This document shows, piece by piece, positions 6,250 through 50,191 of a stretch of DNA of 64,000 nt. The stretch is from Thermoplasmatales archaeon (GTDB taxonomy: Archaea; Thermoplasmatota; Thermoplasmata; Thermoplasmatales; Thermoplasmataceae). Position numbers and translations under genes: made by a program. How positions within the stretch are numbered: the first letter of the stretch is position 1; each line of letters begins with the position of its first letter. The stretch covers positions 62,001-126,000 of the forward strand of contig JAJSLM010000002.1 in NCBI GenBank assembly GCA_026127925.1, read 5' to 3'. The notes beneath the pieces are model-generated. The model saw nothing but the letters and a program-made list of their open reading frames with translations. It ran no database searches and was not told where the DNA came from.

Positions 6250-6843
6250 TTACTTTTTGTCGATCAAATCAGAAATGTATTCCAGATTCTTCGGAGTCAC
6301 GTAGAGCGAACCGAGGGAAAGAAGCTTACCTCTCTCTACATCGATCATTGATATGGAACAGTTTCTTATCTCAACGCCATAACTTTCAACTTCCCCAAGG
6401 TCCATGTATTTGGACACAGCTGACCTGATGGGTAGGGCGTGGGATACAAGGACTTCTATGCCTGAGACAGATTCAATGGCGCGCAGCATCCTTTCCTGAT
6501 GCTCTTCCCAGGTTTCGACTCCAAGTCCAGCCCTTGACCTGCCTACTGCAGGGAACGCCCCAATCTCTGTGTTATTGAATTTTCCAAGGTAAGATTCTCT
6601 CAACCTCTCGTCGGTTTCAACGCGAATACCACGTTCCGCTCCGATAGTTTCTGCAGTTTCACGGGCTCTCTGAACTGGTGAACTTCTTATTCTATTGATC
6701 TTCAGGAGAGAAAGTTGCTTGGCGGCAAATTCGGCCTGTGAATGTCCCTTCTTTGTTAGCGGGTAACCTTCGATATCGCTCGATATTATTCCCTTTGTGT
6801 TTGATATGCTTTCACCATGCCTCACAAGTACAGCTATTTTCAC
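6250..6843 (-). CDS. Histidine phosphatase superfamily (phosphoglycerate mutase-like) protein
   Basis: Phosphohistidine-type phosphatase or mutase of 197 residues. The N-terminal RHGES motif supplies the catalytic H9. SSPVQRARETAE (about 55-66) carries the second conserved Arg, and LVSHALPIRSAV (about 135-146) the second catalytic His. The substrate cannot be told from sequence: candidates include sugar phosphates, nucleotide derivatives and phosphoproteins. A perfect 6-bp-arm palindrome (CGAATC-CGT-GATTCG) sits just before the ATG. The gene is separate from cysS (gap of 23 nt) but could be cotranscribed with it. Confidence 0.85.
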   Translation of the reverse strand: MKIAVLVRHGESISNTKGIISSDIEGYPLTKKGHSQAEFAAKQLSLLKINRIRSSPVQRARETAETIGAERGIRVETDERLRESYLGKFNNTEIGAFPAVGRSRAGLGVETWEEHQERMLRAIESVSGIEVLVSHALPIRSAVSKYMDLGEVESYGVEIRNCSISMIDVERGKLLSLGSLYVTPKNLEYISDLIDKK

Positions 6844-26607: not shown

Positions 26608-27348
26608 ATGGTTTCTGAAAAAGCACTTTATGCAATTATAGCTGCCGTAGTTCTGATAGGAGGCGTTGGTATTGGCGTTGGTTATTATCATGTGATTACA
26701 ACTGCCCCGGTCCCCGTTACTCAAAAGGAGACTTCACTGACATTGGTGATTACGCCAAACAACTATTTCAAAAATGCGACAATAAGTCATAGACAACCGG
26801 CTTATTTCGTCCTTGAACCTAACGGGACTCTGGGATCATCAGCAAAAATAGTTCTCCCCGCTCATACGTTGATTTCTCTGACAATAATAGATTATGATTC
26901 AGGTGTAGCAACAAATATAGGGCCGAATGGAACAGCAAATGTAACTTCTTACACAAACTTCACAGGCACGGTAGGTAATGTAGGATACGTGTACAATGGA
27001 ACTGCACAATATGTGAACGGCACACTCTCCGGCAATTCTACGAATAATATTACGATATCGCATGGTGCCGGCTGGAAAGTTCATCACATGCCTTGGAATT
27101 CGACATTCGGAGGCTGGGAAGTCACGCACACTTTCACCATACTCAATGGAACTCAAATTATGTTAAATGTTCCTTCCTGGGCAGGGGATAATCCGAACGG
27201 TGGTGGCGTGACGCATACCAGTTTCTATATTAACCAGACTGGCACATTTTCCTGGCAGTGTTTTGTTCCTTGCGGTAACGAACTTGATGGATGGGGCGGT
27301 GCAATGGCCACACCCGGATGGATGATGGGAGTAGTTCAGGTAGATTGA
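26608..27348 (+). CDS. Membrane-anchored cupredoxin-fold protein (sulfocyanin / COX2-like)
   Basis: 246 residues: N-terminal transmembrane anchor (about 7-30), then an external domain rich in N-x-S/T sequons. The C-terminal half resembles sulfocyanin or the copper domain of oxidase subunit II: a candidate copper His at H174 (EVTHTFTI) and C218-F-V-P-C222-G near the end. The CuA ligands Glu and His of C-x-E-x-C-x3-H are not present (Val and Leu there), so a binuclear CuA centre is doubtful and a mononuclear or altered site more likely. Followed 4 nt later by Rieske and then cytochrome b, so probably an electron carrier next to a bc-type complex. Confidence 0.78.
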   Translation: MVSEKALYAIIAAVVLIGGVGIGVGYYHVITTAPVPVTQKETSLTLVITPNNYFKNATISHRQPAYFVLEPNGTLGSSAKIVLPAHTLISLTIIDYDSGVATNIGPNGTANVTSYTNFTGTVGNVGYVYNGTAQYVNGTLSGNSTNNITISHGAGWKVHHMPWNSTFGGWEVTHTFTILNGTQIMLNVPSWAGDNPNGGGVTHTSFYINQTGTFSWQCFVPCGNELDGWGGAMATPGWMMGVVQVD

Positions 27349-27352
27349 TCGC

Positions 27353-28069
27353 ATGAAAAGCGAGGATAATAAGCCAGAAGATGAATCTAGGAGAAATTTC
27401 CTGAAATTGATGGGTGTTATCACCGTTGGTGCAGCATCTGTTGGCGCTCTTAGAGGAGTAATACAGAATATAATTCCCCCACCATCAAAGACAATAACTT
27501 CATTTCCTGTTCTAACACTTGTGGGATCAAGCGGATCTCCTATTAAGACCACAGATCTCAAAGTTAACGATCTTTCTATCGTAACTTTTCTCTATCCCCT
27601 TCAGGGCGAGCCTAATTTCCTTCTAAGGCTTGGAAACAGCAGCAACAAGGACATAGCTATTCCATCAATGACTGTTAAGATACCAATAAATGGAAGCACA
27701 TACAAATCGCCTGGCGGTACCGGCCCCTATAATTCCGTGGTCGCTTCAAGCGCAATATGCCAGCACCTTGGGTGCGAACCTCCTGCTATACATTTCTACC
27801 CTCCGTCATCATCTTCTTATTCCGGAAAAATACATTGCAGTTGTCATGGTAGTACATATGATCCGTTTTCCGGTTTCTCTGTCGTCAATGGGCCTACGCA
27901 AAGACCATTGCCTAGTGTGATCATGTCTTATGACAAGGCAAGCGATACTTATTCTGTCAAGAACATGGTTGGCCCGACAATATATGGGAAACCAAGTGAT
28001 CTGAGTGGTGCTGCCTCTCTGCCGTCTTCTACACAAACAACAGTGACAAATTCAGGAGTCCCACCTTGA
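27353..28069 (+). CDS. Rieske iron-sulfur protein
   Basis: 238-residue Rieske [2Fe-2S] protein of a bc1-like quinol oxidase. A Tat-type signal/anchor (S12-R13-R14-N-F-L-K) precedes the hydrophobic segment. Cluster ligands are C136-x-H138 (CQHLGC) and C162-x-x-H165 (CSCHGS), with C141 and C164 for the disulfide. It lies between the cupredoxin and cytochrome b genes. The Tat motif agrees with export of a folded cofactor protein. Confidence 0.95.
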   Translation: MKSEDNKPEDESRRNFLKLMGVITVGAASVGALRGVIQNIIPPPSKTITSFPVLTLVGSSGSPIKTTDLKVNDLSIVTFLYPLQGEPNFLLRLGNSSNKDIAIPSMTVKIPINGSTYKSPGGTGPYNSVVASSAICQHLGCEPPAIHFYPPSSSSYSGKIHCSCHGSTYDPFSGFSVVNGPTQRPLPSVIMSYDKASDTYSVKNMVGPTIYGKPSDLSGAASLPSSTQTTVTNSGVPP

Positions 28070-28079
28070 GGTTATTACC

Positions 28080-29699
28080 ATGGCTGAAGAAAAAGAAAAC
28101 CTAATTGCAAAAATAATGAACGAACCGCAACCGCTCCCACGCAAAGTTCCTGATTACATGCGAAAGAAAGGAGGAATATGGTACTGGACCGGAGCCCTTG
28201 TAATGTTTGCTTTTCTGTACGAGGTTATTACTGGACTTGTCCTTTTGTTTTTCTATCAGCCCTCCAATCCTTATGTTAGCACAGCTAACGTTGCTTACAA
28301 TATCCCTTATGGAACAATATTATTGACCACGCATCTCTACGGAGCCTATGCGATGATCGCACTGATGTACATTCATCTTCTGCGAAACATGTTTGTTGCT
28401 GGATATAAGAAGCCAAGAGAACAGCAGTGGCTAACAGGTGTATTGCTGTTTGTGTTGACTCTTGGTGCTGGTTTCTTTGGGTATTCCATGAGCGGGGATG
28501 TCCTATCGATATCGGCTACCGATGTCGGAAGAGGTATAGCTGCTGGTTTTCCATACATTGGAAACTACTTGAGAAGTATATTCTTCGGGAATGGAACCTC
28601 TTTATCTCTTTTCAGCAGGATGCTTTCCTGGCACATAATAATGGTAGCTCTTATAGGCATACTGTTTCTCGTTCACTTCTTTATGGCGGAGTACAATACT
28701 ATTATGCCTTCTCATAAAAGTGCAAAGTATGTTGCACCGGCAATAGATCATGAAGATTCCAGTTACAAGAAGTGGTATCCGTACAATATGTATTATATGC
28801 TTGAGTTGATGTTCCTATTCTTTGGCGTTATCATCATTCTGCCATCTATCCTTGCAATAATTCCACATATGCCACCACTTTTTTCTCCTTTTCCTCAGGC
28901 TGAGCCAGGTACTCCAGCAGCCTCAATGGTAACTGTCTTCTACCCTCCGTGGTTCCTTCTCTTTCTTTATAAGGAGCTGGACTTTGAATTTTCAGAAGGA
29001 ATGGGTCCATTTTGGGCCACGGTGCTCTTCGCTGGCATGCCCCTTATATATCTGATCATATTGCCAAAACTTGACAGCGGTGATTCTCTTAAACTGAGAG
29101 ATCGGCCTATAATCGTGTCATTTGGCATCCTTGGGATTGCATACATCGTTGGCCTTTCTATCTGGGGGGCTATACAACCAGGTTTTCCAATATCTACAAT
29201 TAAGGTTCTGGCATTTTTCTTTGGTATAGGTTTTGTGATCATTGCTACAACTGCGCTAATCGCTAAGGGATATCGGGAAAAAAGGATAAAGAATGAGAAT
29301 TCAGCTTATACGTTCATTTCTGCGGCTCTTCTGATATTCTCTCTTTTCGGTCTCGCAATGCTCGTATTTTACTCGATAAAATATCCAACGATGATCCATC
29401 TAGTCTCTCTCGCAATAATGGCCGTGATAAGTGCACTTGCAATATTTTCAACTGTTGCCTTTGCCCTTGGAAAACTGCCACGTAAAAGTACACCTAAAAC
29501 GAAGCTTGTTGGAAAGAGAGGACATATGATAGCTGGCGCTGGATTTGCATTTTCTGCAGTTGCCATTCTTTCTATCGTCTCCGTAATCCCTCCAGATGAT
29601 TCATTCAACAACGCCCTTTATGGGATCGGGCTCGGTATCATCTTCCTGCTTGTTGGAGGCATAATAAGGATTCTCAGATCATCCGAACTGGGAGAATAA
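28080..29699 (+). CDS. Cytochrome b (b6-type fused) of a bc1-like complex
   Basis: 539-residue integral membrane quinol oxidase subunit. The b-heme histidine pairs are H85/H99 and H185/H199, each 14 apart. A Qo-site motif reads PPWF at 289-292 where PEWY is usual. There are about 12 hydrophobic helices with extra helices after the bc core. It starts 10 nt after the Rieske gene. With the cupredoxin it should pass quinol electrons onwards. It is larger than most cytochrome b proteins because of the added C-terminal helices. Confidence 0.93.
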   Translation: MAEEKENLIAKIMNEPQPLPRKVPDYMRKKGGIWYWTGALVMFAFLYEVITGLVLLFFYQPSNPYVSTANVAYNIPYGTILLTTHLYGAYAMIALMYIHLLRNMFVAGYKKPREQQWLTGVLLFVLTLGAGFFGYSMSGDVLSISATDVGRGIAAGFPYIGNYLRSIFFGNGTSLSLFSRMLSWHIIMVALIGILFLVHFFMAEYNTIMPSHKSAKYVAPAIDHEDSSYKKWYPYNMYYMLELMFLFFGVIIILPSILAIIPHMPPLFSPFPQAEPGTPAASMVTVFYPPWFLLFLYKELDFEFSEGMGPFWATVLFAGMPLIYLIILPKLDSGDSLKLRDRPIIVSFGILGIAYIVGLSIWGAIQPGFPISTIKVLAFFFGIGFVIIATTALIAKGYREKRIKNENSAYTFISAALLIFSLFGLAMLVFYSIKYPTMIHLVSLAIMAVISALAIFSTVAFALGKLPRKSTPKTKLVGKRGHMIAGAGFAFSAVAILSIVSVIPPDDSFNNALYGIGLGIIFLLVGGIIRILRSSELGE

Positions 29700-29792
29700 A
29701 ATCGGAGGCACAGTCTGAAAAGAAAGTTTACGTTACCCTATAGTTCGGAAAGAATGTAAAAACTAATAAATAGAAAGAGAAAATGAAAGCCC

Positions 29793-30335
29793 ATGCAGAA
29801 AAACAATAGCTACTGGCATACGGTTCCGGTAGGTCCAGATCCTCCTGAGCATCTGTATGTTATAGTTGAAACACCAAAGGGAAGCAAGAACAAGTACGAG
29901 ATGAGCAAACAGTTTCCTGGAATCGTTTTGGATCGTGTTCTTCATTCGTCGGTTATGTACCCAATAGAATACGGCGCGGTTGGCCAGACCCTTTATGATG
30001 ATGGAGATCCGCTTGATGCTATGGTCTTGGTAAATGATCGAACATACCCTGGAGTCGTAATTAAAGCTAGGCCTGTCGGCTTGATGCACATGATCGATCA
30101 AGGTATAGTGGACAATAAGATTCTTACGGTTGCAGAGGACGATCCGGTTTATAGCAATGTTGTAAATTATGACGAACTACCTAATCATGTAATAAAAGAA
30201 ATATCACATTTCTTCGAGACCTATAAGTTGCTTGAAGAAAAGAGAACCGAAGTTCTAAAGTGGGAAGATCATGAGAAAGCCATAGAAGAGATAGACAGAT
30301 CAATAAACCTGTATAAAGAGAAATTTAACAAATGA
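29793..30335 (+). CDS. ppa: Inorganic pyrophosphatase, family I
   Basis: Soluble Mg-dependent pyrophosphatase, 180 residues, cytoplasmic. The signature DDGDPLDAM (about 69-77) carries the metal-binding aspartates, with VMYPIEYGAVGQT before it and the TVAEDDPVYSNV segment after. It drives biosynthetic reactions by removing PPi. It is oddly close to the membrane-bound H+-PPase gene (136 nt between), which also consumes PPi. Confidence 0.95.
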   Translation: MQKNNSYWHTVPVGPDPPEHLYVIVETPKGSKNKYEMSKQFPGIVLDRVLHSSVMYPIEYGAVGQTLYDDGDPLDAMVLVNDRTYPGVVIKARPVGLMHMIDQGIVDNKILTVAEDDPVYSNVVNYDELPNHVIKEISHFFETYKLLEEKRTEVLKWEDHEKAIEEIDRSINLYKEKFNK

Positions 30336-30470
30336 AACCTTTTCAGCCGTTCTTTGGGTAAAACTTTATTTTTGCCATATAAAATCGCTTTATGAGCTCG
30401 TAGAAAAGTAGTGTATTTCGCGCACATATCAGCGAAAAGAATTATAATAATCCTAGAGCTTAAGGAAGTT

Positions 30471-32570
30471 ATGGCGTTCACAATATTCGATTGGGAAATG
30501 CTGGTGCTGGGAGCCGCGGTCGTAGGCCTATTGTATGCGGCTTTGCAGAGTATTTCCCTCCTGAGAATCCCTGTGAAAGAAGAGTTGCCCGCAGAAATTT
30601 CGAAGAGGATAAGGGAAGGTTCTGATGCATTCATGAAACGGCAATATACAACCGTTTTCATTTTCGCAATAATTCTCTTTGTGATAATATTTGTGGCATT
30701 CTACTTTTATCAGGGTTTTGACGTTGCATGGAAACTTGCCTTGGGTTTCATAGTTGGCGCAGTCGGGTCTGCGGTGGCTGGGATAATTGGTATGAGCATA
30801 TCAGTCCGCCTTAACGTGAGGGTTGCCATTCTCGCTAAGAAGGGAATGAGCCCTGCACTCAGGGCAGCATTTAGGGGCGGGAGTGTTACTGGCCTTTCTG
30901 TCGCCTCATTGGCACTCTTAGGCCTAATCGTGTTCTACCTCGCATACAAGAATCCGGACTTGATGATTGGCTACATATTCGGTGCATCTCTTGTGAGTCT
31001 CTTTGCAAGAGTTGGAGGAGGCATATTCACAAAAGGAGCAGATGTAGGAGCCGATCTTGTTGGTAAGGTAGAGGCAGGGATACCTGAAGATGATCCGAGA
31101 AATCCGGCTGTAATTGCTGATAATGTGGGCGATAATGTTGGGGACTGTGCAGGAATGGGTGCTGATCTGTTTGAAACGTATGTTGTAACGATTACCGCAT
31201 CCATGCTTCTTGCTTTCCTTGTAGCCAGAACATATGCAAGTTATAACGGCATTTCTATGCTATCAAACGGAGTTACTTTTCCGCTCGTGATAGGCGCCAT
31301 AGCCATATTCGCAACGATAATCGGCACATTCTTTGTTAGAAAGAACCAGAAACAGCGGATAATGACTGCACTGTACAAAGGACTAATCGCAACCGCTATA
31401 ATTTCTGCAATCGGATTCTATCTGGCGGATTATTACCTAATGAATGGAAATCTCGCCATATTTGGTGACACTCTTGTAGGGATATTTATAACATTCGTAA
31501 TGGTTTACGTAACTGAGTACTATACTTCGGAGAGATACAAACCGGTAGCAAGAATTGCCAAGGCGTCAACAACCGGAGCCGGTACAACTATAATTACAGG
31601 CCTAGGTTATGGCTTGCAGGCGGTCTTCATTCCGGCAATTGTAATAGTCGGTGGGATCCTCGTATCGTTTTCAATCACTTTCCTTTCTTTCGGCAACATA
31701 GCAGATTTCGGTCTTTACGGAATCGGGATTGCCGCGACAAGTATGCTCTCCGTGGTTGGAATGATCATTTCAATCGATTCGTACGGTCCTATAACAGACA
31801 ACGCTGGTGGAATAGCGGAAATGGCTGGATTTGATCAAAAGACAAGGGATGAGGTTACAGATCCACTTGATGCTGTTGGAAATACTACAAAAGCCGTTAC
31901 AAAGGGTTATGCAATAGGAAGCGCTGCTCTTGCTGCTCTTACTCTGTTTGCAGCGTATAAGACACTGATCGCTTCTAAATTCCCAATAATAGAAATCGAC
32001 AATCCACTCGTAATATCCGGACTCTTCATAGGAGCTATGCTTCCATTCTTCTTTACATCATATCTCATGAATGCTGTTGGAAAGGCAGCGTCTGCGATAG
32101 TCGAAGAGGTAAGGAAGCAGTTCCATGAAAGACCAGGGATACTCAAGGGCACCGAAAAGCCTGATTATGGCAAGGCAGTGGATATAGTCACTAAGGAAGC
32201 ACTCAGACAGTTAATGATCCCGGCAATCATAGCAGTTGGAACTCCAATAATTGTAGGTTTTGTTCTCGGGCCGCTGGCCCTTGGAGGAATATTGATCGGC
32301 GTTATACTATCAGGTTTTCCGCTCGCAATAATGATGACAGTCGGTGGTGGCGCCTGGGATAACGGAAAGAAATACATCGAACAGGGGAACTATGGTGGAA
32401 AAGGTTCTGAAGCCCATAAAGCCGCTGTTGTTGGAGATACTGTGGGTGACGCTACAAAAGATACTGCAGGCCCTGCAATAAATCCACTGGTGAAGGTCGT
32501 CAACACAATTTCAATACTCTTCGTGGCTATAATGCTTTCGCACTACCTTCTCATCGGTTTCCATCCATAA
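30471..32570 (+). CDS. hppA: Membrane-bound proton-pumping pyrophosphatase (K+-independent type)
   Basis: About 16-helix membrane enzyme, 699 residues, that couples PPi hydrolysis to H+ translocation. Substrate-binding motifs: DVGADLVGKVEAGIPEDDPR and DNVGDNVGDCAGMGADLFE in the middle, and GDTVGDATKDTAGPAINPL near the end. In the cation-selectivity loop GNTTKAVTKGY there is a Lys where K+-dependent enzymes have Ala, so it is predicted to be K+-independent. I use ATG 30471; an upstream in-frame ATG at 30411 adds 20 non-homologous residues. Confidence 0.95.
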   Translation: MAFTIFDWEMLVLGAAVVGLLYAALQSISLLRIPVKEELPAEISKRIREGSDAFMKRQYTTVFIFAIILFVIIFVAFYFYQGFDVAWKLALGFIVGAVGSAVAGIIGMSISVRLNVRVAILAKKGMSPALRAAFRGGSVTGLSVASLALLGLIVFYLAYKNPDLMIGYIFGASLVSLFARVGGGIFTKGADVGADLVGKVEAGIPEDDPRNPAVIADNVGDNVGDCAGMGADLFETYVVTITASMLLAFLVARTYASYNGISMLSNGVTFPLVIGAIAIFATIIGTFFVRKNQKQRIMTALYKGLIATAIISAIGFYLADYYLMNGNLAIFGDTLVGIFITFVMVYVTEYYTSERYKPVARIAKASTTGAGTTIITGLGYGLQAVFIPAIVIVGGILVSFSITFLSFGNIADFGLYGIGIAATSMLSVVGMIISIDSYGPITDNAGGIAEMAGFDQKTRDEVTDPLDAVGNTTKAVTKGYAIGSAALAALTLFAAYKTLIASKFPIIEIDNPLVISGLFIGAMLPFFFTSYLMNAVGKAASAIVEEVRKQFHERPGILKGTEKPDYGKAVDIVTKEALRQLMIPAIIAVGTPIIVGFVLGPLALGGILIGVILSGFPLAIMMTVGGGAWDNGKKYIEQGNYGGKGSEAHKAAVVGDTVGDATKDTAGPAINPLVKVVNTISILFVAIMLSHYLLIGFHP

Positions 32571-42522: not shown

Positions 42523-43134
42523 TCATTCAGCTGTTGTTTCTGTTCCTAATTTTTCAGTCTCTGCGAGTGCATTGACTCGTTTCCTCAAGTACTCAGGAAG
42601 CATGAGAATATACTCCTGGAGTTTCTCTTTGTTAACAGCCCTCAAAATCTCGTTTTTAACTTCCTCAGGCAAAAACTCATGATAATACACCATATCAATT
42701 AGGATCTTTTCCGGATCTGCAACAGGAATGAAGAAACCGCCATATTCAACAAAAGAGTAACCAAAAAACATGCTTCTCTCTATCCACCGTAACAGATAAT
42801 TCCTTCCCAGAAAAGTTCGTATACCGCTTCTTACGCGTCTGGGCGTAATTATGATTGGATTTGTTTCTTGCTCCCATAGATTCCGGATAGATAACGCATC
42901 CTGTAATCCATAATAAAATGGTTTGAAGGCAAATCCCACATACTGAATCTCATCGTAGAAAGAATATTGACCCCTAGTGATCCTGTATAATCTTCCTGAT
43001 CTCACAAGATTATTCAGCACCAGCTTGTAGTAACCTTCTGGACCATGCCTGTAAGTGAAGAAATTTCTGGCTTCGTAAGAAGAGAAGACTGGTTTAGAGG
43101 AGAACCTGGAAACAAATTCCTTCATGAATTTCAT
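42523..43134 (-). CDS. AbiEi-type antitoxin / wHTH repressor
   Basis: 203 residues, the partner of the nucleotidyltransferase toxin. The N-terminal winged helix (about 1-55: SSYEARNFFTYRHG then VRSGRLYRITRGQYSFYD) and the following FAFKPFYYGLQDALSIRNLWEQ fold fit AbiEi antitoxins, which repress their operon and block the toxin. It overlaps the toxin gene by 4 nt (ATGA), and it lies second in the operon; in most described AbiE pairs the antitoxin comes first. Confidence 0.82.
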   Translation of the reverse strand: MKFMKEFVSRFSSKPVFSSYEARNFFTYRHGPEGYYKLVLNNLVRSGRLYRITRGQYSFYDEIQYVGFAFKPFYYGLQDALSIRNLWEQETNPIIITPRRVRSGIRTFLGRNYLLRWIERSMFFGYSFVEYGGFFIPVADPEKILIDMVYYHEFLPEEVKNEILRAVNKEKLQEYILMLPEYLRKRVNALAETEKLGTETTAE

Positions 43135-43775
43135 CTAATATGCCTCTTCATTTCTCTTATCATGTTTTCAAAGGTAGGAGCCAGCCCAGTGTAAACAAGT
43201 GTCCGCAGTACGTGCTCATCAATGGGTGACGGCAAGTTGGAGAGGAATTCCATAAGATTCAGCCGAGTCGAAGCCTGCAATTCATAATTGGTTGAAAGGT
43301 GGTAAATATCATAAATGTCCCTTATGTAACGACGATCAGCATAAGCCAGCATCTTCTCTTCTATAAACTGGTCAGCTGTCAGACTTAAGACCTCAATATG
43401 GCTTCCATCTGTGAGTTCATATGCTATCTGGTTGCCTGTCGCATTGAATACGTGGTTGACCTCGACTCCTACAATTGCGTTATTGTTCTTTATACTTGAA
43501 AATATTACATTTCCAGTATCTTTAATCTTTAAGACCGACAAACCGTGAGACATAACTGATTTCTGAAATTTAGTCAAGATTCTTGGAAAAGAACGAGAAT
43601 AAAAATCAAGATCCTCGGAAAATCTTTTACCATTGTAGCACCTCCATATGGCTGTTCCCCCATGAAAAATTAACTCATCTGTAAGCGAATAGAGAATGTC
43701 CATGATTTCGTCCTGAAGAAAGGCAACCTGAACCTGAGATTGCTTTTTTAGTTGCTTTGCAATAGGTAATTTCAT
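43131..43775 (-). CDS. AbiEii/AbiGii nucleotidyltransferase toxin
   Basis: 214-residue nucleotidyltransferase of the AbiEii type: G39-G40-T-A-I-W-R then S53-E-D55-L-D57 (HGG...FSEDLDF), the catalytic Asp pair. A further Asp appears in RDIYDIYHL (about 165-173). These toxins inactivate tRNA or other targets by adding nucleotides. Start ATG 43775 (a TTG three codons upstream is possible). Promoter and inverted repeat lie directly upstream. Role in phage defence or plasmid stability is inferred from the family. Confidence 0.88.
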   Translation of the reverse strand: MKLPIAKQLKKQSQVQVAFLQDEIMDILYSLTDELIFHGGTAIWRCYNGKRFSEDLDFYSRSFPRILTKFQKSVMSHGLSVLKIKDTGNVIFSSIKNNNAIVGVEVNHVFNATGNQIAYELTDGSHIEVLSLTADQFIEEKMLAYADRRYIRDIYDIYHLSTNYELQASTRLNLMEFLSNLPSPIDEHVLRTLVYTGLAPTFENMIREMKRHIR

Positions 43776-43788
43776 GCCTAGCAATTAA

Positions 43789-44852: not shown

Positions 44853-45593
44853 TTATCTTGCTGTAATCTTTTTCTTGGGAATATTGTACGTTGCGTAATA
44901 ATAAACTATTCCAAAGAATATGGCGAAGAAGAGTAAAATAAACAAATCCGATATCTGGCGAACTGCTTCAATGTACCAGAACGTGGCGAACGACAGAAGA
45001 ATTGCCGAAACAGCAACCTTCACGTCGGCTTGTTTCACTTTTCTGACTTGAGATCTCAAGACATAAACCGCTATGACCACGGCAATCAAGCCCAATATAA
45101 GGCCAGTTAGGGTATAATAATAATTCTGGGGAAAAAGTGCTACGAGCACTATTGCCGCTTCAAATGCTTCCACAACACCAACAGAGTAAGCGGTAATAAG
45201 GATGCCGTGTTCCTTCTCTTCCTTCTTTGTCGGAAATCCGAGACGCTGGTACCTCATTGATCTTTTTGCGCTTCTCATTAGCCTCAAGCCAAAATACAAA
45301 AGCAAAGTCGCGGAAACAAGTCTCACATAGAAAATTGGTAGAAGGGCAATATAATTACCGATAAATGCCGTTGGAACAAGTACAGTAATGACTCCTAAAG
45401 AGACAGCGTAGAATGGTTCTGCGGTTCTAGTCTCTGCATAAAGTGCAACACCGACAGCAGATGCTTCAGACATTTCTAACAAAGTTATTCCGAAAGCTGC
45501 CAAAAGAATAGCAATTTCAATCAAGTTGCCTGTATATGCCTTTTTCTTTAAAGCTTTTTTTATGAGCTTTCTTTTCCCCGAAGGAATGTCCAA
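44853..45593 (-). CDS. Multi-pass membrane protein with duplicated ExxEA motif
   Basis: 246 residues with about seven hydrophobic helices. Two intramembrane motifs, E40-M-S-E43-A and E142-A-F-E145-A, each in the first helix of a half, indicate an internal duplication like that of cation transporters (GDT1/UPF0016 or LysE-like folds). A conserved Lys/Arg loop follows each half (LRLMRSAKRSMR; VLRSQVRKVKQ). I recall similar predicted membrane proteins of unknown function in Thermoplasma and Sulfolobus. A metal-cation transport role is inference only. Confidence 0.7.
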   Translation of the reverse strand: MDIPSGKRKLIKKALKKKAYTGNLIEIAILLAAFGITLLEMSEASAVGVALYAETRTAEPFYAVSLGVITVLVPTAFIGNYIALLPIFYVRLVSATLLLYFGLRLMRSAKRSMRYQRLGFPTKKEEKEHGILITAYSVGVVEAFEAAIVLVALFPQNYYYTLTGLILGLIAVVIAVYVLRSQVRKVKQADVKVAVSAILLSFATFWYIEAVRQISDLFILLFFAIFFGIVYYYATYNIPKKKITAR

Positions 45594-45770: not shown

Positions 45771-46412
45771 TCACGGTTCGATCTTAAAATAGAATTCCGA
45801 ATGTTCAATTATATCCTTGAGCCCGTTGGCCGCTTCTTCAACTTGAAGCATGAATTTACCTTCATCAAGATTTTCTCTTCCTATTTTCTTTAAAGAGATC
45901 ATATTTTCGTCCAGCTGTTCTCCAAGTTCTTTTGCAATATTCTTTAATACCGTCGCATCGTGATCTAGACTCTCTGAAATGAATCTAGATTTTCTTATAA
46001 GCTTCCGGTATAAGTGAAAATTCCTATCTGGCTTCATGAGGATATTGAGAATCCTGGTAAGCTCACTGAAAAGTAGCAACCTTGAGCCATAAAGCACCGG
46101 AAGGTAGTATACACGAAATGTCCTTTTTTTGCTCATCACAGGAGACAGCAACTGCTCCCTCTTACTGAGATCAGCTTTTGGATCCGTTAAGTCATAATTT
46201 CGGATCTCACCGAGAAGTTTCAAGATCTTGCCAGTTTCATGCACTACCCTGGCATTTTTATGAAGAGGATACAAGGTTTGCAGGACCGTAAAATATTTTC
46301 TGAGTTCGACACGTTCATCGTGGATTTTTTCCACAGTGTATTCATTGATAGAGAGGAAATTGCTCAACGCAGTGTTGGCATAATCTTCAGGCCTCAAGCT
46401 TACTCTCCACAT
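45771..46412 (-). CDS. CHAD domain protein (polyphosphate-binding type)
   Basis: 213-residue all-helical CHAD (conserved histidine alpha-helical domain) protein. The start of the domain reads IHDERVELRKYFTVLQTL (about 30-47), followed by conserved His/Arg/Lys-rich helices typical of CHAD proteins, which bind inorganic polyphosphate. The cationic surface is expected to bind a polyanion. It is the last gene of the five-gene operon and overlaps the gene before it by 26 nt, so translation is tightly coupled. Confidence 0.82.
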   Translation of the reverse strand: MWRVSLRPEDYANTALSNFLSINEYTVEKIHDERVELRKYFTVLQTLYPLHKNARVVHETGKILKLLGEIRNYDLTDPKADLSKREQLLSPVMSKKRTFRVYYLPVLYGSRLLLFSELTRILNILMKPDRNFHLYRKLIRKSRFISESLDHDATVLKNIAKELGEQLDENMISLKKIGRENLDEGKFMLQVEEAANGLKDIIEHSEFYFKIEP

Positions 46413-47019
46413 ATCTTATAAGTTCTAATCTAACATCTTCAAAATTGCTGTCAGTTATGATATATTTTTCTTTTGGAAAAGCTGTCTTAATAGTATTCTG
46501 AAAAACATTTATGTAATTTCTATATGATTCATAAACGTCCCATTTTGTGAGCACATCCATTCCAGCTTCTAGCGGATCCAGAAACCCCCTTTTTGATATT
46601 AGCCTCCTCATTATTTCATCAGGAGATGACACGAGTACAACCTTGATGTCAGGTTCAGGTAGTATCGATAGAACATCTGACATCCATGTGTCCTCTAGGC
46701 CCCTTGCAGCACCCCAGGTCTTAAGAGAAAGGGTGTAACCGTCTGCAATTGCCATAAAACCTGATTCCACGCCGGATCTTATTGAAAGTTCTACCTGATC
46801 AGCAAGATCCGTAACGTACGAGAGAAACAAGGTCCTTCTCCTGAATATCATCTCCTTTTTCATTTTTGTTATGCGTTCTCCGATGAGTTTGGACATTTGC
46901 AACCCAAAGGCCAATACTCCATAACCCTGACCTTCAAGATATTTTTTCAAATCCTGAGAGTGAATTGTTCTTCCGGAGCCATCTATTCCTTCTATTGAAA
47001 TCAGTTTTCCTCTATTCAT
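46387..47019 (-). CDS. Thymidylate kinase-like P-loop protein 2 (altered motifs)
   Basis: 210-residue thymidylate-kinase fold protein: GIDGSGRT at 11-18 has Arg where the Walker A Lys should be, and the DRY/F motif that contacts the nucleotide monophosphate is D93-[25 protein letters not shown] keeps the family spacing. It is probably a pseudokinase or an enzyme with a changed substrate. It follows the intact paralogue in the same operon (4-nt overlap), implying that the two act together. Confidence 0.75.
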
Positions 47020-47642
47020 AAAATCCCTCGTATGTTACTCCTTATTTCCATTTGGACTTCTCTCGGTGTCCGTGTTCCATCGATAATCACGAAGTTATTT
47101 TCTTCAGCTATTTCATCATAAGTTTCTAGAATCATAGACTGATACTTTAAGAATCCATTTCTCTGGTCGAGATCCGGAAAAATATCATGGCCAGATTCTT
47201 GTGGGTTTATCTGCTGCCGTTGCGATTTTATTCTGCTATAGGCGACCTCAGGCTTCACCCGAATATAAAATGTAATGTCAGGTTTTGCTGCAAATGAATA
47301 AAGCTCTCTTATCCACTTACTATCCACACCTCTTGCCTTGTCTCTCGCATAGGCCGTGTAAATGTACCTATCTGCTATTATAACATATCCAATCCTCATT
47401 AGTGGCAAGACAAACTTTTCGTAACGATCACAAAAATCAGTGGCGTGTATCAAACTGAAAGTTATAGGAGTCAATAATTCCTTCTTCTTTGATTCTTTTA
47501 TTATGTCATGTACCCATTCGGATGAATTCCATTCTGTAAGATAGGCATCTCTGGATTGGGCTATCCAGTCTCTCAACAAAGCGGATTGGCTGGATTTCCC
47601 AGAACCATCCATACCTTCAAACGCAAAAAGTTTCCCTTTCAT
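47016..47642 (-). CDS. Thymidylate kinase-like P-loop protein 1
   Basis: 208 residues with intact Walker A G10-M-D-G-S-G-K-S17 and DRY at 91-93 ([17 protein letters not shown]). The REPGGT segment of true thymidylate kinases is missing (TEWNSSEWV at the expected place), so the acceptor may not be dTMP. It resembles both thymidylate kinases and the related P-loop polyphosphate kinases (PPK2). Overlaps ppx upstream and its paralogue downstream by 4 nt each. Confidence 0.75.
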
Positions 47643-48913
47643 ATTGTCCTGCCCGAATAGTTTTTGCTCGTAATCGACTTCATCTCTTTAGCTGCCTGGA
47701 GCAAGTCGCGAGCAGAAAATTTGTCGCTAGCAAAATTCAGGATGTTTCTGTCAGGTTTCGATGTGGTGGAACCCAATATGGCCGCTACTATCAGGCTTTC
47801 CTCAGATGTGAATCCTGGCATAACGGAATGCTTGACAAAGTTGAAACCCATTTCATATGGGTTCAAGAAGCCGAACTCCTTTAGCGTTAGTGCAATAAAA
47901 GAAGAAGCGGCAAGATAAGGTGTGATTTTTCCGTATCTGGTCGAATCATCTGCTATGCTGTCGTAAATGGCGGGTGAGATGTGCAAATTGAGATTCAGGG
48001 CTATATTCTCAAGCCAGTCTCTTCTCAAGGTCTTTCGATCAATCTCAGTTCCAGTGAGGACTCCTTCGCGCATTCCGTATGATGACACCATTAATTCCTT
48101 TGATTCGGCATATTTCATGAATTCATCTATTACAACAGCCGCAACGTGTACAGTTGCGGATCGATCTTTGTTCACCCCAGAAATATTTCTTCTATCTTCT
48201 GGATCAATAGATAAAAGATGTCTAGCATGCTTTGAGATACGCTGAATGGGTAGTGAATATCCGTGGAATGATAGCAATGGGTATTTGCGAGAATTAAGAT
48301 CTATTTTTGCCAGGGCCCTAACATTGCCGCCAGTTCCAACAATTTGTTTTCCTCGAGGCAGATATATATTTTCTAGTTGTTTTCTGATTTCTTTTCTAAG
48401 TTTCTTTTCATCCTTTTCAAACTTCTTGAGCTTAAGGGCACCCAGGCCATACAGTTTCACTTTTCCAATTCTGCCATTCTTAACGGTTGCAACTTCTAAC
48501 GAACCGCCACCAAGATCAAATATCATGGCATCTTTTATTGGCAGGGTATTAATCGTCCCCAGAGCAGCGAATTTTCCCTCCTCTTCTCCGGAAACAACAT
48601 TTATCTTTATGCCTGTTTCTGAAAGTATCTTATCAACGATATAATCTGAATTTGACGCATATCTGAAAGCACTGGTGCCAACAGCAACTGTATCTGAAAT
48701 ATTCTCTAATTGAACGATGCTTTGAAATCTGCTCAATGTAGAGATAGCATTATCGATTTTTTTCTCTGAGATCGCTGACCCACTTTCAACTCCGGCCCCA
48801 ATTCGTACAAATTCTTTTACGGACCGCCTTATCTTGAATGTTTTGTTTTCATAGAAATCGTATGTACACAACCTGAATGAATTATATCCTGCATCAATTA
48901 CTGCTTTAATCAT
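47639..48913 (-). CDS. ppx: Exopolyphosphatase / guanosine pentaphosphate phosphohydrolase
   Basis: 424-residue Ppx/GppA enzyme that removes terminal phosphate from polyphosphate. Actin-like ATPase fold signatures: [17 protein letters not shown] at the start, [34 protein letters not shown] with the catalytic Glu, and [12 protein letters not shown] (about 139-150). The C-terminal helical part (from about 290) has HD-like segments. It sits between the SixA-like and the TMK-like genes with gaps or overlaps of 4 nt. Confidence 0.92.
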
Positions 48914-48917
48914 ACAT

Positions 48918-49406
48918 CTATCTCTGAAGAACTTTCTGGTCTATGACAAGTTTGACTAGGCTCTCTCCGTCGGAAGGATTATAGCTCAATAGAACAAGGC
49001 TACCTTTGCTCGTTTCAATGTTCGCGCCAGTGATAGCTTTTAGTAGTTTAGAAATCAAAGGTTCATGCGAAACAACGAGGCAGGACAGGTTGTCAAATTC
49101 CTTGATTCTGTTTATAAACTCCAAGGGTTTTCTCCCCGGCTCCAGTTCCGGAATAGTCTCTATTTTTACATCGAGTTTCAGTTCATCGCAGATCACATCA
49201 GCCGACTGGTATGCTCTCAGGAAACGACTGGAAAATACCCTATCAACAGTAACATTAATGTCATCGAGCAACTCAGCAACGCGCTTCATTTGTTTGATTC
49301 CACGCTTTACCAGTTTTCTGGCCTCATCAGACTCACCCTCAACAGAGGGCTCAGAAGCACCGTGCCTCACGAAAATTAGAGTTATCACGTTAGTTTGATT
49401 TGCCAA
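48918..49406 (-). CDS. SixA-like histidine phosphatase
   Basis: 162 residues (154 to 162 depending on start), a small histidine phosphatase: FVRHGASEP with the catalytic His, SRFLRAYQSADVI carrying the Arg, and VVSHEPLISKLL with the second His. SixA proteins dephosphorylate phosphohistidine. I keep the TTG at 49406 because a strong box A (TATATAAAAT on the plus strand, 49422-49432) fits a leaderless mRNA near it; GTG 49388 is an alternative. It opens the polyphosphate-type operon. Confidence 0.82.
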   Translation of the reverse strand: MANQTNVITLIFVRHGASEPSVEGESDEARKLVKRGIKQMKRVAELLDDINVTVDRVFSSRFLRAYQSADVICDELKLDVKIETIPELEPGRKPLEFINRIKEFDNLSCLVVSHEPLISKLLKAITGANIETSKGSLVLLSYNPSDGESLVKLVIDQKVLQR

Positions 49407-49532
49407 ATTGATTTAAACATTATGTATATAAAATATATTGTCTATAGTTTTTATGTAGCTTAGCCCTTATTATCAGTATTTCAGGCAACGAGGTTCTTGG
49501 AGCCAATTGTTAACCTTTTTTCCCAACAGACA

Positions 49533-49570: not shown

Positions 49571-50191
49571 GTGAAGAAGCACGGAGAAATCATCGAAACC
49601 TATGTTCGAGCCCTAGAACCAAATTGTCCCATCCTTACCCCATTGATTAATTCTAGATCGGAATTCGAGATAGAACAGCTCAATGCAGGGATTGAATCGA
49701 CAAACCACCTTGTATGGATGGAGAAACTTACTGAAGGCTTGAGATCGGATCTCAAAAAAAATGCAACATTCGTAAAGGCAGTATCAAGGCACAATTTCTG
49801 GATAGAGGCTCACAGCTGCACAATTTGCAAGGTAATTTCAACGATACAAGCTATTCCAATTAGTGTCAAGCCATCAGATTCTGGTGGCCTCATTTACAAA
49901 CTTTTTCTTCCAGACAGCAGACTTGTACCAAAGCTGGGAACCATGCTTGAAGACACTCGGGAAAAGTTCGTCGTGTACGAAGGAAATGATAACACTGCGG
50001 GAACAAGCTTGACAATGAGGCAAAGAGAATTGCTTCTGTTAGCGTTCAGGGAAGGTTATTTTGATTCTGATCGTAAGATAAGCCTCACAGATTTAGCTGA
50101 AAAAATAGGGATCTCCACGAAAACACTTCAGGAAACATTAAGGCGGGCTACTAAAAAGGTGGTTCAGGATTACGTTACTGAAAAATTATAA
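49571..50191 (+). CDS. Bat-type HTH_10 transcriptional regulator
   Basis: 206 residues. The C-terminal LTMRQRELLLLAFREGYFD and ISLTDLAEKIGISTKTLQETLRRA (about 142-190) form the HTH_10 domain of archaeal bacterio-opsin-activator-like regulators. The N-terminal sensing part (about 1-130) contains an SCTICK Cys pair (C81, C84) that might bind metal or respond to redox, but this is inference. GTG start. It is divergent from the polyphosphate-type operon with 164 nt between them, so it could regulate that operon. Confidence 0.82.
   Translation: MKKHGEIIETYVRALEPNCPILTPLINSRSEFEIEQLNAGIESTNHLVWMEKLTEGLRSDLKKNATFVKAVSRHNFWIEAHSCTICKVISTIQAIPISVKPSDSGGLIYKLFLPDSRLVPKLGTMLEDTREKFVVYEGNDNTAGTSLTMRQRELLLLAFREGYFDSDRKISLTDLAEKIGISTKTLQETLRRATKKVVQDYVTEKL

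Follow-up and report, generated by a model that had tools for sequence, protein, structure and literature searches.

The polyphosphate (polyP) kinases PPK1 and PPK2 are absent from the Crenarchaeota (PMC6864096), and the Sulfolobales were described as being without a known PPK (PMC7831078). Two papers that cite the work of Hofmann et al. (bioRxiv 2024.08.28.610084; J Biol Chem 2026 302:111283) refer to a distinct polyP-kinase family in Sulfolobus (PMC11677633, PMC13318637). In biomining archaea, SixA, PPX, dTMP kinase and CHAD are drawn as a conserved gene context (PMC10892726, Fig. 2). The preliminary description of the locus studied here had called the source of archaeal polyP an open question, which is out of date for the Sulfolobales, where the distinct kinase family is cited as published. 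Judging from these citations, a polyP kinase that resembles thymidylate kinase (TMK), which is the central idea here, seems to have been published for Sulfolobus already. The Sulfolobus enzyme is reportedly TMK-related, with a catalytic and a non-catalytic subunit, and may be encoded by orthologues of the genes tmk1 and tmk2 described below. New here are the extension to the phylum Thermoplasmatota, the residue signatures of the pair and its partition among the genomes.

The window, a stretch of 64,000 nucleotides from a Thermoplasmatales archaeon, contains a compact operon with the order sixA-ppx-tmk1-tmk2-CHAD. As first described, all five open reading frames are on the minus strand (Table 1). 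The 4-nt gaps or overlaps were recovered as a gap of 4 nt between sixA and ppx and overlaps of 4 nt at both ppx/tmk1 and tmk1/tmk2. For the last junction the preliminary description had given 26 nt before CHAD; the figure was right, but the 26 nt are an overlap of tmk2 and CHAD and not a gap if ATG 46412 is the CHAD start, which is also the start in the same-genus relative L035. The longest reading frame of sixA covers 48918-49406 with a TTG start at 49406. Comparison with the same-genus relative L036, whose sixA starts at the corresponding residue, makes the GTG at 49388 the more likely start.

Table 1. Position and assignment of the operon features in the window
Feature	Position	Strand	Assignment	Basis
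sixA	48918..49388	-	histidine phosphatase	RHG motif; TIGR00249; PDB match E. coli SixA 1ujb
ppx	47639..48913	-	exopolyphosphatase, short form, 424 aa	PF02541, TIGR03706
tmk1	47016..47642	-	TMK-like, probable catalytic subunit	Walker A Lys16, WNSS 38-41, DRY 91-93, ARD 99-101; PF02223
tmk2	46387..47019	-	TMK-like, probable non-catalytic subunit	Walker A Arg17 for Lys, DG for DR 93-94; PF02223
CHAD	45771..46412	-	putative polyP-binding helical protein, short form, 213 aa	H31, R34, R38, R71; predicted fold and basic-residue spacing
putative archaeal promoter	49424..49433	-	TATA-like stretch TTTTATATAC upstream of sixA	seen by eye

The operon is flanked upstream by the gene of an HTH_10 regulator (49571-50191, plus strand), which is divergent from sixA here as well as in L036 and may control the operon. 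At the other end, CHAD is followed after 177 nt by an OFeT_1 iron permease gene (44853-45593, minus strand), which adjoins CHAD in L035 too. At 42523-43784 on the minus strand, a gene for a nucleotidyltransferase toxin of the AbiEii type (PF08843, 56 bits) is overlapped by a gene whose 203-aa product gave no Pfam match and which occupies the position of an AbiEi antitoxin gene. A second gene of the histidine phosphatase superfamily (6250-6843, minus strand; PF00300, 106 bits) is unlinked to the operon. About 14 kb from the operon, another phosphoanhydride enzyme, a membrane H+-pyrophosphatase (30411-32570; PF03030, 843 bits), is encoded close to Rieske and cytochrome b genes (27353-29699) in a plus-strand region of 26608-32570.

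The SixA product scored 77.7 bits with the NCBIfam model TIGR00249, over its curated cut-off of 74.5. The Ppx product carries the Ppx-GppA domain PF02541 (135.9 bits, over the Pfam cut-off), and its best NCBIfam model is the exopolyphosphatase model TIGR03706 with 235 bits, below the cut-off of 307 for this model. Ppx and GppA form one superfamily and the window protein also matches the NCBIfam GppA model, so Ppx might act on guanosine pentaphosphate and the module might handle alarmone nucleotides instead of polyP. We consider this extremely improbable, since the exopolyphosphatase model is matched best, CHAD binds polyP and not nucleic acid, and the Ppx of S. solfataricus is described as an exopolyphosphatase.

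The product of the last gene scored below the Pfam gathering score for the CHAD domain PF05235 (12.4 against 25.6 bits, E=0.16), which is passed by the orthologues at the same gene position in other families. A PDB sequence search with the window protein found no CHAD relative, and only the fold search found them. The predicted structure has eight helices over the 213 residues (pLDDT 82), and a Foldseek search of the PDB ranked three CHAD proteins first, namely R. communis 6qv5, C. tepidum 3e0s and S. chartreusis PptA 6rn5, each with a probability of 1.00 and with E-values of 0.003-0.006 that are modest as a fold match alone. The basic residues H31, R34, R38 and R71 were invariant among the four CHADs first aligned, but only H31 and R71 stayed invariant when the CHADs of families f7, f18 and f34 were added. 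The four residues have exactly the spacing of H29, R32, R36 and R69 in the S. solfataricus CHAD, which binds polyP with a KD of 45 nM and loses this binding when the four residues are jointly mutated (PMC6537752). The predicted fold and the basic-residue spacing place the window product in the CHAD family despite its low Pfam score. An apparent TMK2-CHAD fusion in family f34 (L082, L083) was rejected, as the 200 extra residues are an upstream extension of the frame and not a CHAD domain.

The two TMK-like proteins are not equivalent. With the thymidylate kinase profile PF02223, TMK1 scored 86.8 bits and TMK2 44.8 bits. The Walker A motif is GMDGSGKS in TMK1 and GIDGSGRT in TMK2, and the DRY of TMK1 is DGY in the window TMK2. 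Among the tandem pairs examined in the phylum, one wrongly cut row being omitted, the Walker A lysine was present in every TMK1 and replaced by arginine in every readable TMK2. The DR motif is retained in most TMK2s and lost in the genus of the window. Because of the arginine in all readable copies and the loss of the DR motif in this genus, TMK2 is probably non-catalytic. The structural comparison proposed in the preliminary description returned a TMK fold for TMK2 (pLDDT 84), with S. tokodaii ST1543 as the best PDB match. TMKs are dimers, and a TMK1-TMK2 heterodimer is therefore the obvious guess. Neither protein matched the PPK2 profile PF03976; they score as TMK and are not PPK2 proteins. 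In structural comparisons of a PPK2, thymidylate kinases come next in similarity once other PPK2s are set aside, with ST1543 (2PLR, 4NZY) among the closest (PMC4748334). In a scan of viral contigs the TMK2 profile gave weak matches only (23-33% identity), presumably to ordinary viral Tmk.

TMK1 was then compared with ordinary dTMP kinases. With the NCBI dTMP kinase model TIGR00041 (cut-off 83.25), TMK1 scored 95.7 bits and TMK2 47.7 bits, and several pair proteins from other families exceeded the cut-off like TMK1; they will therefore be annotated as dTMP kinase, and for most pair proteins tested the model gives a wrong name. In an alignment of 21 TMK1s, ST1543 included, with nine canonical Tmks of the phylum, at positions that are invariant or nearly so in Tmk, the dTMP site was changed in all 21 (EP to WN, F66 to H, R70 to F, S/T97 to A, Y100 to R and Q101 to D). 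We take these to be the base-stacking, base-binding and sugar-discriminating positions of TMK structures. The preliminary description had counted the lack of any other Tmk in the genome, together with normal dTMP kinase activity, against its proposal; a separate canonical Tmk was found in the same genome (G000:C5, 125.8 bits), and 46 of 48 pair genomes contain at least three PF02223 loci. By its residues, TMK1 does not look like an ordinary dTMP kinase. The score of TMK1 over the NCBI cut-off and the deposition of its orthologue ST1543 as a dTMP kinase would fit a true dTMP kinase, or a kinase acting broadly on nucleoside monophosphates, with TMK2 as its decayed copy and both merely placed in a phosphate-related operon. 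This reading is unlikely, as it would have to accommodate the canonical Tmk, the dTMP-site residues altered in all TMK1s, a TMK2 conserved with its invariant arginine across eight families, and the exact partition of the pair and PPK1 among Ppx genomes described below. The non-canonical TMK1 and its probably inactive partner can be told from true Tmk by simple signatures, which are WNSS and ARD in the first subunit, the Walker A arginine in the second and the tandem order.

The spread of the pair was determined by a profile search of 390 genomes, all of the phylum Thermoplasmatota. Tandem pairs were found in families f1, f7, f18, f34, f36, f38 and f44, and a search of close relatives added f3, which gives eight families. 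The preliminary description had proposed to look for the five-gene order in other Thermoplasmata, and the order indeed recurs in another family of the same order. Because it does so at protein identities of only 20-34% for ppx, tmk2 and CHAD and 45-48% for tmk1, the conservation of the gene order is far above chance. The ppx gene lies beside the tandem pair in six of the eight families, often together with CHAD. At the loci read from f3, f7, f18, f34 and f38 ppx is nearby, mostly directly before the pair, and in f38 it follows CHAD and sixA. Of the 30 genomes with pair and ppx, 21 encode a CHAD that passes the Pfam cut-off no more than about 5 kb from the pair; this count leaves out the two genomes from the genus of the window, in which CHAD scores too low. 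Neither ppx nor CHAD was detected in the pair genomes of f36 and f44. At the loci read from these two families, the neighbours include genes for CYTH proteins (L084, L088), a SixA-like phosphatase (L087) and PhoU (L085), and 13 of these 18 genomes have PPK2. One genome of f38 (G128) carries two copies of the tandem pair on different contigs (L081 and G128:C20), possibly from a mixture of strains.

Among the 390 genomes, PPK1 was found in 52, Ppx over the cut-off in 73 and the TMK pair in 44. The 73 Ppx genomes fell into 47 with PPK1 and 26 with the pair, none having both and none having neither, and in no genome of the 390 did pair and PPK1 occur together. Fisher values for this partition are below 1e-26, which is overstated since the genomes cluster by lineage and the independent events are few. 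By family, Ppx is accompanied by the pair in f1, f7, f18, f34 and f38, and in f3 outside the sample, and by PPK1 in f8, f9, f10 and f35, with no exception. The window's own genome, which is 98% complete, gave no match to PPK1 (PF02503) or PPK2 (PF03976). For genomes outside the Sulfolobales, the partition supports the proposed function of the pair by an independent, genomic line of evidence. In f8 and f9, many of the PPK1-bearing genomes also have a double-domain PPK2 of about 470-550 aa, the second domain of which scores far lower; this is possibly another tandem of an active and an inactive unit.

The partition also bears on the direction of the reaction. The reaction preferred by PPK2 enzymes, which are structurally related to TMK, is the synthesis of NTP driven by polyP (PMC4748334), and such reactions are reversible, so the pair could use polyP to phosphorylate nucleotides while another enzyme makes polyP in the cell. 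We regard this as very unlikely: the pair was always present in Ppx genomes without PPK1, which points to a synthase, PPK2 is already present in 20 of the 44 pair genomes, and in Sulfolobus an enzyme responsible for making polyP is described.

The origin of the window TMK1 was analysed in a tree, in which the row L082_T2, cut in the wrong frame, was ignored. The window TMK1 grouped with S. tokodaii ST1543 with 100/100 support. Its identity to ST1543 is 65%, whereas Thermoplasmatota TMK1s from outside this genus are 43-52% identical to ST1543. Within its own family f1, the pair was found only in the genus of the window among the genomes searched. A transfer between the Sulfolobales and this genus, suggested by one Sulfolobales sequence, would be the simplest reading.

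Taken together, the operon is very probably a polyP module in which TMK1 and TMK2 would be the catalytic and the non-catalytic subunit of a polyP kinase of the reported crenarchaeal kind. The earlier claim that the TMK-like pair moves phosphate between a nucleotide and polyP thus gains support at the level of sequence from the ppx and CHAD context, the loss of the dTMP site, the separate Tmk, the absence of PPK1 and PPK2 and the partition. From the observed anatomy, conservation, residue changes and phyletic pattern we infer the activity of the pair, its complex formation, its reaction direction and the roles of its subunits. TMK1, with its complete P-loop, would transfer phosphate between a nucleoside triphosphate and the polyP chain. 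TMK2 would keep the fold without normal P-loop catalysis and, because arginine replaces the catalytic Walker A lysine, may serve as a structural, regulatory or polyP-holding partner of TMK1. Ppx would hydrolyse polyP and return phosphate, CHAD would bind and tether the chain, and the pair would stand in the place of PPK1 in this phylum. More tentatively, the invariant change of lysine to arginine may have turned the nucleotide site of TMK2 into a site that holds or gates polyP. The pair might then be a heteromeric polyP polymerase that replaces PPK1 in about half of the Ppx-bearing Thermoplasmatota families and that operates in lineages lacking Ppx too, where PPK2 or CYTH enzymes would be the consumers; we find this extended reading conceivable and rather doubtful. 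If the polyP kinase assignment is true, the bacterial polyP synthase is replaced in many archaeal genomes by a non-homologous enzyme that is labelled dTMP kinase in automatic annotation, and surveys restricted to PPK1 and PPK2 miss a polyP synthesis that exists.

The module can be set beside several known systems. In the biomining archaea the cluster consists of the same gene families, but the paper gives the kinase no polyP role and in its text does not remark on the unequal pair. S. tokodaii ST1543 (PDB 2PLR, 4NZY, 4RZX, 5H70) has the WNSS and ARD signatures in common with the window TMK1; it was deposited as a dTMP kinase, whereas a polyP-related function is proposed for TMK1. The PPK2 family has a P-loop kinase fold related to TMK and uses polyP, but its profile does not recognise TMK1 or TMK2. 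PPK1, a synthase unrelated to the TMK pair, co-occurs with the exopolyphosphatase in its own genomes as the pair does with Ppx here, and is never found together with the pair in the 390 genomes. A further close system is the crenarchaeal polyP kinase of Hofmann et al. The window pair, whose polyP kinase activity is predicted, differs from it in belonging to another phylum and in the loss of the DR motif from the TMK2 of its genus. As cited, the crenarchaeal enzyme provides for polyP synthesis in an archaeon that has neither PPK1 nor PPK2, and the window genome likewise has neither of the two.
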